Origin: Bacilli bacterium
Lineage (GTDB): Bacteria; Bacillota_I; Bacilli_A; RFN20; CAG-826
Reading direction: 5' to 3'
Length of the DNA stretch: 35,526 bases
NCBI GenBank assembly: GCA_017450325.1
Contig: JAFSVB010000131.1
Coordinates: 1 to 35,526 of the forward strand
The position numbers and the translations under genes are program-made. Positions 396 through 22,253 of this stretch are shown one piece after another. The stretch's first letter is position 1, and each line of letters begins with the position of its first letter. The notes beneath the pieces were generated by a model that was not told the DNA's origin, searched no databases, and was given only the letters and a program-made list of their open reading frames with translations.

Positions 396-665
396 ATGAG
401 AGAAGAGCTGCTCAAAGGTTTAACCGAAGAACAAATCGCTAAAATCAAAGCGTGCAAAAACCAAGAAGAGATCCTAAAAATTGCCAAAGAAGAAGGGATT
501 GAGCTTTCCGACGAACAACTAGAGGCTGTTTCCGGTGGCAGCTGCCATGATGGTGCCTGGTGCCCGTTTTGCTATCAACACAACACCCGTTTTCTTGATC
601 GAGAGGGCAACGTTATGATCTATATGTGCGATGATTGCCATAAAGAATTTAGAGCGTCTTTCTAA
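396..665 (+). CDS. Double-glycine leader peptide with zinc-ribbon core (copy 1)
   Basis: This 89-residue peptide has a helical, charged leader (residues 1-48) beginning MREELLKGL and ending in AVSGG, followed by a 41-residue core. The leader resembles Nif11-like/double-glycine leaders of ribosomally made peptides. The core carries CPFC and CDDC separated by 18 residues, the pattern of a zinc ribbon, plus an extra Cys right after the GG. The start was chosen at 396 because AAGGAG lies at 381-386; the open frame extends to 240, but that extension has no ribosome binding site. The leader is about 85% identical to the one at 1049 (41 of 48 residues), while the cores share only the Cys pairs. No maturation enzyme or C39-peptidase transporter is adjacent. 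A secreted, processed peptide is inferred; an intracellular zinc-binding protein is the alternative. Confidence 0.8.
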   Translation: MREELLKGLTEEQIAKIKACKNQEEILKIAKEEGIELSDEQLEAVSGGSCHDGAWCPFCYQHNTRFLDREGNVMIYMCDDCHKEFRASF

Positions 666-1048
666 TACAGCGTTACACAACGATAGACTTGCGTTTATGG
701 GCTGTGAGGGTAGTTGCCGGAGGTAATTTTCCTTCGCCTTGAAACTCATGCTTCCTAAGCGCAAAAACTTTATGACTGTGCTTTATACGAAGCTTTCGGC
801 TTGAAGCAGCATTTCCTTCAATTCGTTTTTCTCCATCATTTTTACCTCGTGAATTTTTTATACAGTTTGCCTTCACGAAGAAAACGCTCGATGGGTTTCC
901 GCTTTCTGAGAGGAACGGCACGAAAAAACGTTGGATGAAGACTCTTGCCAAACAAGGTGCGCGGATGGATTCATAGACCGTGCTATTTCGTCTATAGCGC
1001 ACATATAGAGCCGTTTGGTATCATATGAATAAAGAAAGGGGCCTCGCC
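666..1048. other. Intergenic region between leader-peptide genes 1 and 2
   Basis: No gene is supported. An 18-codon minus-strand frame (783-839) has a plausible GAGG ribosome site, and a TATAAA-like sequence lies upstream of it on the same strand. It is too short to call. Longer minus-strand frames here look random. No clear terminator follows the first peptide gene. Confidence 0.3.
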
Positions 1049-1324
1049 ATGAAAGAAGAACTTTTAAAAGGGCTATCCGAAGAGCAGATCGCCAAGATCA
1101 AAGACTGCAAATCCCAGGAGGAGATGCTGAAGCTCGCCAAAGAAGAGGGCATCGAGCTCACCGATGAGCAATTAGAGGCCGTCTCTGGCGGTAGCTGCCT
1201 CACCGATTTTGATTGCCCTAAGTGCAAAGGCACGATCAAAGGTAGCAGTTGCGACGATTATTACAATTACGTCTGCCCACATTGCGGATATAGATTTAAA
1301 AAGCCTCGCGGCGTCATGTCTTGA
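1049..1324 (+). CDS. Double-glycine leader peptide with zinc-ribbon core (copy 2)
   Basis: A 91-residue paralogue of the gene at 396. Residues 1-48 form the leader (MKEELLKGLSEEQ..., ending AVSGG). The 43-residue core has CPKC and CPHC separated by 16 residues, with one further Cys between them and one directly after the GG. The start at 1049 is preferred over the in-frame ATG at 1025 because the purine-rich AAAGAAAGGGG (1031-1041) sits 7 bases upstream and the protein then begins exactly like its paralogues. A strong terminator follows at 1363-1388, so the gene is probably not cotranscribed with the metallochaperone at 1692. The product is inferred to be either a secreted leader-cleaved peptide or a small zinc-binding protein. 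Confidence 0.8.
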   Translation: MKEELLKGLSEEQIAKIKDCKSQEEMLKLAKEEGIELTDEQLEAVSGGSCLTDFDCPKCKGTIKGSSCDDYYNYVCPHCGYRFKKPRGVMS

Positions 1325-1691: not shown

Positions 1692-2933
1692 ATGACGAAA
1701 TTTAAAACGGTGCCCATCACCTTAATCACCGGCTATCTTGGAAGTGGAAAAACCACATTGATTAACCACATTTTAAAGAACGCTAAAAACCATAAAATCG
1801 CGGTCATCGTCAACGATATCGGCGAAGTCAATATCGACGCGGATTTGATCGCTAGCGGAGGCGTCGTCTCTGGACAAGACGATTCTTTGGTGCCTCTCTC
1901 CAACGGGTGCATTTGCTGCACGCTGAAGGAAGATCTCATTAAGCAATTAGCGGATCTGGTCAATTCCGGGAACTTTGACTATATCCTCATCGAAGCGTCC
2001 GGTATTTGCGAGCCCGTTCCTATCGCGCAGACCATTACTTATATGGAAGGCGAGTTTGAGAAGCAGGGACTACCCAAGTTCTATACATTGGATTCCATCA
2101 TCTCGGTCACCGATGCGTTAAGGCTATCCGACGAATTCGGCTGTGGAGAAGTGCTTAAAGAAACGGAAAGAGGGGAAGAGAACCTCGAAAACCTCGTCAT
2201 CCAACAATTGGAATTCTGCGACATTGTCTTGCTCAATAAAGTCAGCGAGATTTCTGCAGAGGAATTAAAGAAGGTGAAATTGGCAATTAAAGCCATCCAA
2301 CCGGAAGCGAAGATCATCGAATGCGATTATTGTGCTGTCGATATTGACGAACTGGTCGATAACCATCTATTCGACTTCGAAAAGGCCGCGGGAAGTGCCG
2401 CATGGATTCGCGAATTCGAAGATCGGGACAACGAAGTCGACCATAGTGAAGAGGAGCACCATCACGATGACGATGATGACGATGACGAAGAGGAACATGA
2501 ACACCACGAACACGGCCACCATCATCACCATCACCACGGCATAGAAAACGAAGAAGAAGGCACCGCTTTAGAATACAACATCAATACCTTTGTCTATTAC
2601 CGTAGAAAGCCCTTTGACAAACAACTGTTCACGAAATGGGTGGAAGAATCTCCGAAACATAAAATCATCCGAGCGAAAGGCATTTGCTATTTTGCTGACG
2701 ATGAAAAGAACGTCTATATTTATGAGAGCGCCGGCAGGCAAAGAACATTGGGCTGCACGGGAAAGTGGTTATCGGACCGTATCAGCAAACAACAAATTCA
2801 AAACCTCCTAAAAACCGATAAGAACTTCGCCCATGACTGGGATGACCAATATAAAGAAAAATTGATTAAACTGGTCTTTATCGGACAAAACCTCGATGAA
2901 GTGGCCATAAGGAACGAACTCGATCAAATCTAA
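1692..2933 (+). CDS. CobW/COG0523-family GTP-dependent zinc metallochaperone
   Basis: A 413-residue G3E GTPase. Visible parts: Walker A GYLGSGKT (14-21), the family metal motif CICC (73-76), a switch-like IEASGICEP (100-108), a guanine-specificity-like NKVS (182-185), and a CobW C-terminal domain (about 296-410). Between the domains lies a very acidic, His-rich linker (about 251-289) with runs of Asp, Glu and His, including seven His in a row. Family members of this type use GTP to deliver zinc to client enzymes, often under zinc starvation. The His/Asp-rich linker probably binds or buffers metal. Neighbours are two Cys-rich zinc-ribbon peptides upstream and a ferritin downstream, which fits a metal-handling locus. 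The metal is inferred; cobalt or nickel delivery is possible in related branches. Confidence 0.88.
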   Translation: MTKFKTVPITLITGYLGSGKTTLINHILKNAKNHKIAVIVNDIGEVNIDADLIASGGVVSGQDDSLVPLSNGCICCTLKEDLIKQLADLVNSGNFDYILIEASGICEPVPIAQTITYMEGEFEKQGLPKFYTLDSIISVTDALRLSDEFGCGEVLKETERGEENLENLVIQQLEFCDIVLLNKVSEISAEELKKVKLAIKAIQPEAKIIECDYCAVDIDELVDNHLFDFEKAAGSAAWIREFEDRDNEVDHSEEEHHHDDDDDDDEEEHEHHEHGHHHHHHHGIENEEEGTALEYNINTFVYYRRKPFDKQLFTKWVEESPKHKIIRAKGICYFADDEKNVYIYESAGRQRTLGCTGKWLSDRISKQQIQNLLKTDKNFAHDWDDQYKEKLIKLVFIGQNLDEVAIRNELDQI

Positions 2934-3201: not shown

Positions 3202-3693
3202 ATGAATCAGCAATTACGCGACCTCATTGAAGATCAGATCAACAAAGAACTTTGGAGCGCCTATATTTATCTCGACATCGCCGAGTTCTATCAGGCCAAA
3301 GGACTCCATGGCCTCCACGCTTGGTTCGAGAAGCAGGCAAAGGAAGAAGTCGAACATGCGGAGAAATTCATGGAATTCCTTCATGACCGCGACGAATCCT
3401 TCCGCCTCAAGCCAATCGAAGCCCCGAATAAGGTCTATAAGGACCTCCGCGAGCCTCTTGCCTACCAGCTCGAGCACGAAAAACTCGTCACCTCCCTCAT
3501 CCTTGCTATCTATGGCAAAGCTAAGGAAGTCGGAGATCCAATCGTTTCCCACTTCATGGCGTGGTACGTTAACGAGCAGGTTGAAGAGGAAGGGCATTCC
3601 AAAGAACTGCTCGACCAATATGACCTCTTCGCCAAAGACGGCGGACTCGGCTTACACGAGTTCGACAAAGATTGCGGCAAGGCCGTCAAATAA
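3202..3693 (+). CDS. ftnA: Non-haem ferritin (FtnA-type iron storage)
   Basis: A 163-residue four-helix ferritin that oxidises Fe(II) and stores it as mineral inside a 24-subunit shell in the cytoplasm. The ferroxidase ligands can be read in order: E16 (KELWSAYIYLDIA), E49 and H52 (KEEVEHAEK), E93 (EHEKLV), and E125/E128 in NEQVEEE, with Tyr23 near the centre. The length and the C-terminal helix match prokaryotic FtnA. It lacks the haem-ligand Met context of bacterioferritin and the N-terminal pattern of Dps. It has its own -10 box and ends in a large structured terminator. The metal-chaperone gene upstream is in the same direction, 268 bases away. Confidence 0.95.
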   Translation: MNQQLRDLIEDQINKELWSAYIYLDIAEFYQAKGLHGLHAWFEKQAKEEVEHAEKFMEFLHDRDESFRLKPIEAPNKVYKDLREPLAYQLEHEKLVTSLILAIYGKAKEVGDPIVSHFMAWYVNEQVEEEGHSKELLDQYDLFAKDGGLGLHEFDKDCGKAVK

Positions 3694-16710: not shown

Positions 16711-16983
16711 ATGAAGGAAGAACTATTAAAAGGCTTATCCGAAGAGCAGATCGCCAAATTAAAGGCCTGCAAGGGAACGGAAGAAATATTAGCGGCCGCC
16801 AAAGAGGAAGGTATCGAGCTCACCGATGAGCAACTAGAAGTTGTCTCTGGCGGCAGTCTGTGCGCCCCGGCTTGCCCGAACTGCGGAACGAAAGAATACG
16901 TGTATAAAGGCACCGAAGAACACAACCAAGACAAGTATGTTTGCAAAAAATGCGGCGCGATATGCGGCGACTTCGGCATTTGA
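16711..16983 (+). CDS. Double-glycine leader peptide with zinc-ribbon core (copy 3)
   Basis: A 90-residue paralogue of the genes at 396 and 1049, about 15 kb away. Residues 1-48 are the leader (40 of 48 identical to copy 2), ending VVSGG. The 42-residue core has CPNC and CKKC separated by 19 residues, plus Cys residues near the junction and near the C-terminus. The start at 16711 has AAGGAGG (16695-16701) at ideal spacing; an in-frame TTG two codons earlier is less likely. As in the other two copies, Cys20 in the leader is conserved. The nearest exporter genes (18673-22253) have no C39 peptidase domain, so no dedicated leader peptidase is visible. Confidence 0.8.
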   Translation: MKEELLKGLSEEQIAKLKACKGTEEILAAAKEEGIELTDEQLEVVSGGSLCAPACPNCGTKEYVYKGTEEHNQDKYVCKKCGAICGDFGI

Positions 16984-18672: not shown

Positions 18673-20454
18673 ATGGGTTATTTGTTCAAAAAATTCACCG
18701 CGTGGAACTGGATATCGATCTTTGTCATCGTGCTTCTCACCCTCGTGCAGGTCTACTTCACGATGGCTGTCGTTGCCTGTGTCAATGAGTTGATGAGTGT
18801 CGTCCAGCGTGGGATTGTCGATGAAATCTGGAAAAATGGTTTCTGGATGATCCTCTCCGCGTTGCTGCTCGCCATCGCGCAGACGGTGATCTCCATCATC
18901 GCCTCCGCTACTGCGAGTTCCATCGTGACCAGGACTCGTAACGAGCTCTATCAGAAAATCAATGCGCTGTCGCTCGCCGACATGGCTGGATTCTCCACCG
19001 AATCCCTCATCACCAGAACCACCAACGACATCCAGAATGTCCACTTGGCGTTCCTCACCGCTTTGCGCACGGTCTTCGTCGCTCCGATCACGATGGTTTG
19101 GTCCATCATCTTGCTCGTCCAAACCGGCGTTGCGGAGCTGACCATCGGCACCATCATCTGGCTGGTGCTGCTCGTCGTCGCCGTCATCTTCTTAATCCTC
19201 TTGGTCATCCCCAAGTACAAAGCCGTTCAGCGCTTGACCGATGCTTTGAACGTCGCTAGCCGCGAAAACCTCACGGGTATCCGCGTCGTCCGCGCCTTCA
19301 ACGCCGAAAGATATCAGGAAGAGAAGTTCGAAAAGGTCAACGTCGAGTTCACGAAGAAACAGATCTTTGTCGCCAAAGCCTTGGCCTTCTTCACCCCGTT
19401 TGTCATGTTCGTCATGATGGGCCTCACCCTCACGATTCTGTGGATCGCCTGCATCATCCTGCACGGCAACGCCACCATGGAGCAGGCTACGGCGGCTTTC
19501 GCTGCGACGAACTCCTTCGTTATGCTCGCTTCGCAGATCGTCATGGGCTTCATCTTGCTCATCTCGATCATTCTCCTTTGGCCTCGTGCGACCGTCTCCG
19601 CGAGACGTATCCGCGAAGTCCTTACGCACCTTGAATCCATCGTCGACCCCGAAAACCCCGAGGAATTCAAGGAAGAGGGCACCATCGAATTCCGCGATGT
19701 CGGATATGCCTATCCTGGCGCGGATAAAGAATCGGTTTCCCACATCAGCTTCAAAGTCAAAAAAGGCGAGACCATCGCTTTCATCGGTGCGACGGGCTCT
19801 GGCAAAACGACCATCATCAACATGATTCCGCGCTTTGCCGACGCTACGACTGGCGAAGTCTTCGTCGATGGCGTCAACGTCAAAAACGTCCGTCAGGAAG
19901 ACCTCCGCAACAAGATTGGGTATACCCCACAACGCGGCTTCCTTTTCAAAGGGAACATCCGCGAAAACATCGCTTTCTCGAATCCTGAGATGACGATGCA
20001 GGACGTCAAGAAAGCGGCCGATATCGCCTGCGCGAGCGAGTTCGTTGAATCCAAGCGCGAGCAATACGAGTCGGAAGTCGCTCAAGGCGGCACCAACTTC
20101 TCTGGCGGTCAGAAACAGCGTCTTTGCATCGCTCGTTCCGTCGCCAAGTTCCCGGAAATCCTCATCTTCGACGACTCCTTCTCCGCCCTTGACTACCGCA
20201 CCGACAAGGTCGTGCGCCAAAACATCAAGGAATCGATGCCTGGCGTCACCCGCGTTATCATCGCTCAGCGCGTCGGCACCATCATGGACGCCGATCAGAT
20301 CGTCGTCCTCGACAAGGGTGAAATGGTGGGCTTAGGCAAACACGAAGACCTCGTCCGCAATTGCCCTGTCTATCAGGAAATCGCCCTTTCTCAGCTCAGC
20401 AAAGAAGAGCTCGGACTTGCGCCCAAGCAAGCCGCCGCCAAAGGAGGTAACTAA
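18673..20454 (+). CDS. ABC exporter subunit with degenerate ATP site
   Basis: A 593-residue half-transporter: six hydrophobic segments (about 1-310) and a nucleotide-binding domain (about 335-575). Walker A is GATGSGKT (372-379), Q-loop Q420 and signature FSGGQ (476-480). Walker B ends FDD, so the catalytic glutamate is Asp501, and the H-loop His is replaced by Gln532 (IIAQRVGT). These are the marks of the non-hydrolytic half of heterodimeric type IV exporters such as BmrC or TM287. The ribosome site AGAAAGGA lies just upstream. The partner gene starts two bases after its stop. The substrate is not readable; drugs, lipids or peptides are possible. There is no C39 peptidase domain. Confidence 0.92.
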   Translation: MGYLFKKFTAWNWISIFVIVLLTLVQVYFTMAVVACVNELMSVVQRGIVDEIWKNGFWMILSALLLAIAQTVISIIASATASSIVTRTRNELYQKINALSLADMAGFSTESLITRTTNDIQNVHLAFLTALRTVFVAPITMVWSIILLVQTGVAELTIGTIIWLVLLVVAVIFLILLVIPKYKAVQRLTDALNVASRENLTGIRVVRAFNAERYQEEKFEKVNVEFTKKQIFVAKALAFFTPFVMFVMMGLTLTILWIACIILHGNATMEQATAAFAATNSFVMLASQIVMGFILLISIILLWPRATVSARRIREVLTHLESIVDPENPEEFKEEGTIEFRDVGYAYPGADKESVSHISFKVKKGETIAFIGATGSGKTTIINMIPRFADATTGEVFVDGVNVKNVRQEDLRNKIGYTPQRGFLFKGNIRENIAFSNPEMTMQDVKKAADIACASEFVESKREQYESEVAQGGTNFSGGQKQRLCIARSVAKFPEILIFDDSFSALDYRTDKVVRQNIKESMPGVTRVIIAQRVGTIMDADQIVVLDKGEMVGLGKHEDLVRNCPVYQEIALSQLSKEELGLAPKQAAAKGGN

Positions 20455-20456
20455 CG

Positions 20457-22253
20457 ATGTCACAAGCAATCGCCGCGAAAAAGCCGAATAACTTTGGCCG
20501 TTTGAAAGACCTCTTTAAATTCGCCCGCAAGTATTATGTGCCGATGGCAATCTCCATCGTGTTGCTGATTGGCTCTGCGGTGCTTTCCATCCTCACCCCG
20601 CGTTACGTGCAAACGCTCACCAACCTCATTTCCCCCGCGGAACTCACCGTTGGCGCTAATGGCATGGTCGAGGTCAAGATGGACCTCTTCGTCCAGAACG
20701 CGATCTTCCTCCTTAGCTTCATCATCTTAAGTTTCTTGCTCTCGATGATCTCGGGCATGATCTTCAACGTGGCGGTCCAAAAACTTAGCCGCGATATCCG
20801 TACCTCCATCAGCGAGAAGACCAACCGGATGCCGTTAAATTACTTCGACACCAGGCAAATCGGCGACATCCTCTCCGTCATCACCAACGACGTCGATGCC
20901 TTGTCGACTTCCTTGCAGAACTCCATTACTTTGGCTGTTCAGGCCGTGGTTACTCTCGTCGGCGTCATCATCGCGATGTTCATCTCCGAGTGGCATATGG
21001 CCCTCGTCGTCTTGATTTCGCTCCCCATTATCCTCATTGCTATCTTCGTCATCTTCCACTTCGCCACCCCGTTATTTGGCAAGAACCAAACCCTCTTGGG
21101 CGAAGTCAACGCCGAAGTCGAAGAAAGCTTCACCGGTCAGATCGTCATTAAGGCCTTCGGCGCCGAAAAGCGTAAGAACGCCCAGTTCGAGAAGAGGAAC
21201 GCCGCCCTTGGCAGGACGCTGTTCACCTCGCAGGCCCTCGGTGGCATCATCGAGCCGGTCATGAGCGTCCTCTCCTACCTCACCTATGCGGCCGTCATGA
21301 TCGTCGGCGGTCTCCTCTTTGTCAAAGGGGATATCAAACTCGGCCTCATCACGGGCTTCCTCGTCTACGTCTCCTTGTTCCAGCAACCGCTTTCCGAAAT
21401 CGGCCAAATCGGCTCCACCGTCCAGCTTGGCATCGCCGCGGCGGGACGTGTCTTCGACTTCCTCGCCGAAGAAGAACTCCCCGACGAATCCGAGAAGAAG
21501 ACGGGCCTCCTCGATCACGACCACATCCGTGGCGAAGTCGAATTCCGCAACGTGGCCTTCGGCTATGATCCTGCCAAGCTCACCATCAAGAACTTCAACC
21601 AGAAGATCCAGCCTGGCATGAAGGTCGCCATCATCGGTCCTACCGGCGCTGGCAAGACCACCTTGGTCAACTTGCTCATGCGCTTCTACGAGACCACCAA
21701 AGGCGATATCTTAGTCGATGGTGTCTCCATCCACGACATGACGCGTGAAGAGCTCCGCACGGTATTCGGCATGATCTTGCAGGAAACCTGGGTCATCAAT
21801 GGCACGCTCCGCGAGAACATCGTCTATAACCTCAAGGATGTCTCCGAAGACCGCCTGAATGAGATCTTGAAAGAGACCTCTTTGGATCACTTCGTCTCCA
21901 CCCTGCCGCAAGGCATCGACACCGTCATTCAGAAGGATTCCGCCCTCTCGGCTGGACAGAAGCAGTTGGTCACCATCGCCCGCGCAATGGCCGAGAACTC
22001 GCCGATGCTCATCCTCGACGAGGCGACCAGCAACGTCGATACCCGCACGGAAATCCTCATCCAAAGCGCGATGGATTCGTTGACCAAAGGACGCACCTCC
22101 TTCGTCATCGCACACCGTCTCTCTACCATCAAGAACGCCGACCTCATCATCGTTATGAAATCTGGCGACGTCGTTGAGACTGGTACCCATGACAGCCTCA
22201 TGGCCCTTGGTGGACTCTATAGCGAGATTTATAACTCGCAATTCAATAACTAG
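20457..22253 (+). CDS. ABC exporter subunit with canonical ATP site
   Basis: A 598-residue partner of the upstream half-transporter. The membrane domain is about 20-330. The nucleotide-binding domain is about 355-595, with Walker A GPTGAGKT (394-401), Walker B LILDE with catalytic E522, and switch H553 (IAHRLST). Its signature is LSAGQ (497-501) rather than LSGGQ. In the heterodimer that altered signature faces the degenerate Walker site of the first subunit, while the intact FSGGQ of that subunit faces this one's catalytic site. This is a consistent asymmetric pair. The ribosome site AAGGAGG lies within the end of the upstream gene. A strong terminator follows. Confidence 0.93.
   Translation: MSQAIAAKKPNNFGRLKDLFKFARKYYVPMAISIVLLIGSAVLSILTPRYVQTLTNLISPAELTVGANGMVEVKMDLFVQNAIFLLSFIILSFLLSMISGMIFNVAVQKLSRDIRTSISEKTNRMPLNYFDTRQIGDILSVITNDVDALSTSLQNSITLAVQAVVTLVGVIIAMFISEWHMALVVLISLPIILIAIFVIFHFATPLFGKNQTLLGEVNAEVEESFTGQIVIKAFGAEKRKNAQFEKRNAALGRTLFTSQALGGIIEPVMSVLSYLTYAAVMIVGGLLFVKGDIKLGLITGFLVYVSLFQQPLSEIGQIGSTVQLGIAAAGRVFDFLAEEELPDESEKKTGLLDHDHIRGEVEFRNVAFGYDPAKLTIKNFNQKIQPGMKVAIIGPTGAGKTTLVNLLMRFYETTKGDILVDGVSIHDMTREELRTVFGMILQETWVINGTLRENIVYNLKDVSEDRLNEILKETSLDHFVSTLPQGIDTVIQKDSALSAGQKQLVTIARAMAENSPMLILDEATSNVDTRTEILIQSAMDSLTKGRTSFVIAHRLSTIKNADLIIVMKSGDVVETGTHDSLMALGGLYSEIYNSQFNN

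Follow-up and report, generated by a model that had tools for sequence, protein, structure and literature searches.

Nif11-derived precursors (N11P; TIGR03798/PF07862) are known in association with NHLM transporters (TIGR03794/03796/03797) (Haft et al. 2010, PMC2887384). Their conserved leaders end in a double glycine (GG), they form paralogous families with divergent cores, and they are linked to NHLM peptidase/ATP-binding cassette (ABC) proteins. In the prochlorosin and LahA systems with ProcM or LahT (PMC6363468, PMC10783134), many near-identical Nif11 leaders share one processing and export system and the cores are lanthipeptides; in the LahT structure, leader residues V-4, L-7 and L-12 sit in the groove of the C39 domain (PMC6363468). 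Here we describe a family of small precursor genes, three of which lie on the 35,526-nucleotide contig JAFSVB010000131.1 of a Bacilli bacterium (GCA_017450325.1), analysed over its whole length and called the window below (Table 1). The system works like the Nif11/NHLM precursors in all the features named above, yet neither its leader score nor its core type is as expected: the leader is short and scores below the curated cut-offs, the cores are zinc ribbons instead of low-complexity Cys/Gly/Ser sequences, the genome has no LanC-like or YcaO domain, a radical SAM (rSAM) enzyme, a HipA-like kinase and regulators stand in the export cluster, and the hosts are Bacilli and Lachnospiraceae. We consider it likely that the family encodes GG-cleaved, exported zinc-ribbon miniproteins that are served by an NHLM-type C39 exporter and would form the effector arm of a regulated secretion system.

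An earlier reading of the window from its letters alone (the sequence-only reading) had proposed three genes with a common 48-residue leader ending in VSGG, which the open reading frames (ORFs) and their alignment bear out. Its figure of 83–85% leader identity held for two of the three pairs (genes 1 and 2, 85%; genes 2 and 3, 83%), while genes 1 and 3 share 81%; the proposed distance of 16–19 residues between the CxxC pairs agrees with the 18, 16 and 19 residues of genes 1, 2 and 3. AAGGAG is located at 381–386, 5′ of gene 1, which scores E 3.4e-29 against the leader profile, and GAAGGAGG is located directly 5′ of gene 3. A leader search of the contigs of the window's genome (G000; C-numbers denote its contigs, L-numbers loci and other G-numbers other genomes) detected 16 copies at E ≤ 0.001 on many contigs, 14 of them with a zinc-ribbon core and two (C199, C232) with a short core containing a single Cys. 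Numerous precursor genes are found no more than about 800 bases from a contig end (C21, C36, C114, C127, C210 and C219), and therefore the true copy number is probably above 16.

Table 1 Precursor genes of the window and the GTPase gene next to genes 1 and 2
Feature	Position	Strand	Description
Precursor gene 1	396..665	+	89 aa ORF
Gene 1 leader	396-539		48 aa, VSGG end
Gene 1 core	540-662		SCHDGAWCPFC...CDDCHKEFRASF; stop 663-665
Precursor gene 2	1049..1324	+	91 aa ORF
Gene 2 leader	1049-1192		48 aa, VSGG end
Gene 2 core	1193-1321		SCLTDFDCPKC...YVCPHCGYRFKKPRGVMS; stop 1322-1324
CobW/ZigA-like GTPase	1692..2933	+	Domain matches; long His/Asp-rich insert
Precursor gene 3	16711..16983	+	90 aa ORF
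Gene 3 leader	16711-16854		48 aa, VSGG end
Gene 3 core	16855-16980		SLCAPACPNC...CKKCGAICGDFGI; stop 16981-16983

The clade-wide leader search and count of core variants that the sequence-only reading had proposed found the leader in 20 of 78 related genomes, with 1–35 copies each, the 35 being in a congener. The 76 loci obtained from genome collections belong mainly to rumen-derived metagenome-assembled genomes (MAGs) labelled Bacilli or Erysipelotrichaceae, together with a few Lachnospiraceae. The family is rare, since it was present in four of 295 genomes drawn phylum-wide, all four from one family. Among 270 distinct members, 248 carry the zinc-ribbon pattern CxxC-x(13-27)-CxxC after the GG, where low-complexity Cys/Gly/Ser cores would be expected of Nif11-like precursors; most of the others are short, with one or no Cys. 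Chance is excluded because this pattern is kept in so many relatives and because 16 copies occur in one genome. The cores do not keep the CxxC pairs alone, as had been stated: an extra, fifth Cys within five residues of the GG is found in 246 of the 248 zinc-ribbon cores, most have CPxCG knuckles, the first of which begins with CP in 225, and an aromatic residue directly follows the last knuckle in 233. Clustering at 50% identity gave 62 core clusters, 34 with at least two members and 28 singletons, the largest (70 members) being a single-link merger of several types. The cores are recurring types, not free-form. Several other genomes have the core type of gene 2 in nearly identical form, and one member of this type adjoins an NHLM cluster in genome G003 (L180:4141-4416); the core type of gene 3 was found at three further loci. 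Precursors also form tandem arrays of up to 11 genes, and 11 consecutive genes with differing cores were observed at L106:4433-8586 and L060:5676-10279. Searches for a plasmid, phage or viral-contig origin returned no matches.

For export, the sequence-only reading had named the lack of a C39 peptidase anywhere in the genome as a refutation, and this refutation fails. Two C39 peptidase/ABC proteins are encoded in the window's genome, on contigs C186 and C199 (PF03412 above cut-off), in two NHLM-type clusters, one of which holds a zinc-ribbon precursor. Their N-terminal peptidase region reads QLE(x)LECGAAS and GGGHFVVL(D/N)G, with the catalytic Cys and the His region readable. Each adjoins a second NHLM-type ABC gene and a STAS gene; the C186 cluster further contains a HlyD-like 129-aa protein, an rSAM/SPASM enzyme (PF04055 and PF13186), a 394-aa protein, a SpoIIE-type phosphatase, an RsbW-like kinase and the zinc-ribbon precursor, and the C199 cluster a histidine kinase, a response regulator and a short precursor. 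Over the loci, zinc-ribbon precursors were located inside or beside NHLM clusters at L026, L172, L177, L178 and L180 and, in Lachnospiraceae, at L081 and L086, where the order is precursor, extracytoplasmic function (ECF) sigma factor, rSAM, phosphatase, STAS, RsbW, HlyD, ABC1 and ABC2. The partner-switching set of STAS, SpoIIE-type phosphatase and RsbW-like kinase recurs in the NHLM clusters of L026, L170, L177, L178, L180 and L086, and in Lachnospiraceae an ECF sigma factor accompanies it. The 394-aa protein (L026:6982-8166, with homologues in NHLM clusters of 12 relatives) gave an AlphaFold2 model of pLDDT 88 whose top Foldseek matches are HipA/CtkA kinases. Ser or acidic residues are frequent at the C-terminus of the short in-cluster peptides (KFES, RKIDS), which are therefore possible substrates of this HipA-like kinase.

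Leader and exporter occur together. With the NHLM peptidase scored as present at E < 1e-190 (17 of 78 genomes), 16 of the related genomes have both, four the leader only, one NHLM only and 57 neither (Fisher p ~4e-12); within the genus the corresponding counts are 13, 3, 1 and 14 (p ~4e-5). In a further set, full NHLM at E < 1e-247 was detected in all three leader-positive genomes and in none of 14 leader-negative ones, which gave generic ABC matches without the peptidase region. Every genome with both leader and NHLM has at least three leader copies. In all 268 members scored, leader position -12 is L, -7 is L, I or M, and -4 is V, I or A, matching the LahT contacts; C39 recognition as in LahA/LahT is thereby suggested. 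Similarity across this large paralogous family ends at the GG, as in Nif11-type precursors. The C39/NHLM clusters, the co-occurrence, the adjacency and the promoter shared in relatives thus support the proposal, made in the sequence-only reading, of exported zinc-binding or Cys-modified peptides with a double-glycine or Nif11-like leader. It is very unlikely that the zinc-ribbon proteins stay in the cytoplasm without export, the leader being a Nif11-like interaction domain and the GG incidental. Zinc ribbons are usually cytoplasmic binders of nucleic acids or proteins and gene 3 weakly matches the TFIIB-like PF08271 (7e-6, below cut-off), but the leader genes are tightly clustered and co-occur with a C39 exporter, the GG and the C39-contact residues are conserved, and the members cease to resemble one another at the GG, as double-glycine precursors do.

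The profile of the full-length precursor matches RPB9/TFIIS-type ribbons over the core (1qyp, 2.5e-4; 3qt1, 1.3e-4); a match to 2i13 (6e-7) was set aside, its score being a sum over repeated fingers. The cores share with TFIIS/RPB9 the CPxCG-like double knuckle at a profile E of about 1e-4; those proteins are intracellular transcription factors or subunits, whereas the ribbon here follows a likely cleavable export leader. From this Cys pattern we infer zinc binding. The fifth Cys stands at a tight distance from the GG (sd 0.9), while the first zinc Cys is 5–20 residues away, and the sole Cys of the short in-cluster peptides has the same GG-proximal position, which suggests that this Cys serves both kinds of peptide in a common way close to the cleavage site, perhaps through modification or a disulfide. 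It is possible, although doubtful, that the cores are instead substrates of the rSAM/SPASM enzyme with thioether or C–C crosslinks, either as a ranthipeptide- or sactipeptide-like ribosomally synthesized and post-translationally modified peptide or as a zinc ribbon also modified at the GG-proximal Cys. The position of that Cys follows the GG and not the knuckles; rSAM464 was detected in 17 of 20 leader-bearing genomes and one leader-less genome (leader and rSAM enzyme over the 78 genomes: 17 both, three leader only, one rSAM only, 57 neither); and at L086 (Lachnospiraceae) the rSAM cluster is directly preceded by a zinc-ribbon precursor. The enzyme is distantly related to SkfB, its best PDB relative, and to others. 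On the other hand, the CPxCG...CxxCG knuckles with the aromatic residue and a 13–27-residue loop are the signature of a metal-binding ribbon, which the RPB9/TFIIS matches reflect, and in most rSAM-bearing clusters the short single-Cys peptide is a candidate substrate encoded closer to the enzyme. The sequence-only reading had proposed looking for an rSAM or LanM-type enzyme; the SPASM rSAM is present in NHLM clusters, and no LanC-like domain (PF05147) was detected in the genome, nor a YcaO domain (PF02624). The idea that cores are unmodified in G030 and G024, whose export clusters have no rSAM, was rejected, both genomes carrying rSAM elsewhere.

In many relatives, precursors and export clusters share a promoter. 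The words TTTGTGAC and TGTGGCAC are enriched 5′ of 226 precursors (70 against 0.7 expected), and the unit is TTGTGRCA-N3-TTGTGRCA, direct repeats with an 11-bp period mostly 45–65 bp before the ATG; TAnnnT begins 10 bp past the second repeat (88 occurrences over 94 promoters). Over 1.5 Mb of loci, 133 of 176 motif matches lie directly 5′ of leader genes (for example at L045, L048, L060, L065, L070 and L106), and others precede the 394-aa protein (five clusters), the rSAM gene, the STAS gene and short precursors of NHLM clusters. SARP promoters have repeats 11 bp apart, 8 bp from the -10 element (PMC10936776). Compared with the SARP-controlled antibiotic promoters of AfsR, the direct repeats have the same 11-bp period just 5′ of the -10; here the repeat is TTGTGRCA and the regulator a receiver-domain protein in Bacillota. 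The response regulator of several clusters matches Pfam in its receiver domain only; for its conserved C-terminal domain, the first and third PDB profile matches are EmbR and AfsR (SARP-type), weak at E 0.3–0.9. A LytTR label for this protein was dropped after the C-terminal part was read. The direct-repeat promoter is probably bound by this SARP-like regulator. By the motif, the predicted regulon comprises precursors, NHLM clusters and several signal-peptide-like proteins. The promoter is also shared by M(A/P)(R/K)LTK...SMAD(F/Y) proteins (L024:3893-5026, L024:5194-5838, L167 and L176; copies in the window's genome lie on C114 near a zinc-ribbon precursor); the one such protein scanned had no Pfam match.

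The family, its leader motif, the zinc-ribbon pattern, the co-occurrence, the adjacency and the shared promoter of relatives were computed, and from these we infer cleavage, export, metal binding, modification and role. The Nif11-like 48-residue leader would dock through L-12, L-7 and V-4 on the C39 domain of the NHLM-type ABC exporter and be cut after the GG, upon which a core of 35–55 residues would be exported. Four core Cys (CPxCG...CxxCG) would hold the zinc ribbon, and the fifth, by the cut site and common to the short single-Cys peptide of the NHLM/rSAM cluster, may be a common modification site. One or two export clusters per genome would serve many precursors scattered over the chromosome, and in many relatives precursors and export clusters would stand under the common direct-repeat promoter, probably through the SARP-like regulator. 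An effector role, as antagonism of or signalling to neighbours, is the most likely one from this organisation, given that a single exporter goes with many different conserved cores, that its cluster encodes two-component or partner-switching regulators, and that relatives have a promoter in common. A reading as classical class II-type bacteriocins, in which every peptide would have its own immunity protein, seems unlikely. Blp/Pln-type bacteriocin systems are organised in a similar way, and a double-glycine leader, a C39 exporter, many core types and likely two-component regulation are all found here, but the precursors have no recurrent small partner gene 3′ of them and hence no immunity-like candidate: of 131 downstream ORFs with a ribosome site, 84 are themselves precursors of this family and fall into one group, and the other groups have three members at most.

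Several points weigh against the view that the family encodes exported zinc-ribbon miniproteins of a regulated NHLM-type system. The window leaders stay below the curated cut-offs of TIGR03798 (24.3/21.2/21.3 bits against 32.3) and PF07862 (21.2/18.9/17.2 against 23.8). The ABC proteins of C186 and C199 fall slightly below those of TIGR03796 (831/819 bits against 853) and TIGR03797 (640/653 against 709), and the HlyD-like 129-aa protein matches positions 2–52 of the 421 of TIGR03794 (29.9 against 156.2 bits). For gene 2, AlphaFold2 gave three helices in the leader and short strands in the core, at a pLDDT of 60 that makes the model too weak to use; a Foldseek search with it returned nothing significant. 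None of 14 zinc-ribbon genes of the window's own genome carries the promoter motif, so that co-regulation is supported in relatives only; in the window's genome the motif stands before the C232 short precursor and before two genes on C114 that belong to a different family. Among members lacking the motif, a k-mer search brought out no clear alternative. Three genomes with 1–3 leader genes showed neither NHLM nor rSAM and a fourth lacked NHLM only, all four being incomplete MAGs; the related genomes behind the counts are non-independent samples, and the in-cluster short peptide itself scores as a leader match. The low dN/dS of pairs with similar cores (0.15 in cores, 0.14 in leaders) speaks for the main reading, but it is biased by the choice of pairs on core similarity and describes constraint within types and not family-wide.

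No earlier report of zinc-ribbon cores behind such leaders was found in the literature searched, in which few subscription papers were covered. The near confinement of the leader genes to genomes with the NHLM machine suggests an arsenal of secreted zinc-ribbon peptides not described before. If this is true, zinc-ribbon miniproteins join modified natural products as cargo of Nif11/NHLM export, and a single export system explains hundreds of small orphan ORFs of rumen Bacilli. Testable questions follow: whether a C39 exporter passes a metal-bound fold, how secreted zinc ribbons affect neighbours, and what load the cut-site Cys bears. Leader and promoter are simple handles with which to mine further cores. 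More tentatively, and with a rather low chance of being right as a whole, the secretion system may export dozens of distinct zinc-ribbon miniproteins while the short modified peptide serves as its own pheromone, the rSAM/HipA-like kinase pair marking the GG-proximal Cys or the C-terminal Ser; the cores would then be a new secreted metalloprotein effector class of rumen bacteria.

The four-Cys zinc site, and the position of two window copies 0.4–1 kb 5′ of a ZigA/CobW-like GTPase with a His-rich insert, would suit a secreted metal scavenger (zincophore) under zinc limitation, which we regard as improbable. CobW genes do not recur beside members of the family, and metal capture alone would hardly account for at least a dozen distinct, conserved types of core in each genome. 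A Zur box is an inverted repeat, whereas the shared promoter consists of direct repeats. A zinc-homeostasis link through the GTPase was rejected; the gene is probably an incidental neighbour because it is not among the recurrent ones. Elsewhere in the window, two adjacent MsbA-like ABC exporter ORFs (593 and 598 aa) occupy 18673-22253, 3′ of a TetR-like ORF; the C39 model had no match on the window contig, this pair included. A ferritin-like ORF (3202-3693) follows the CobW/ZigA-like GTPase.
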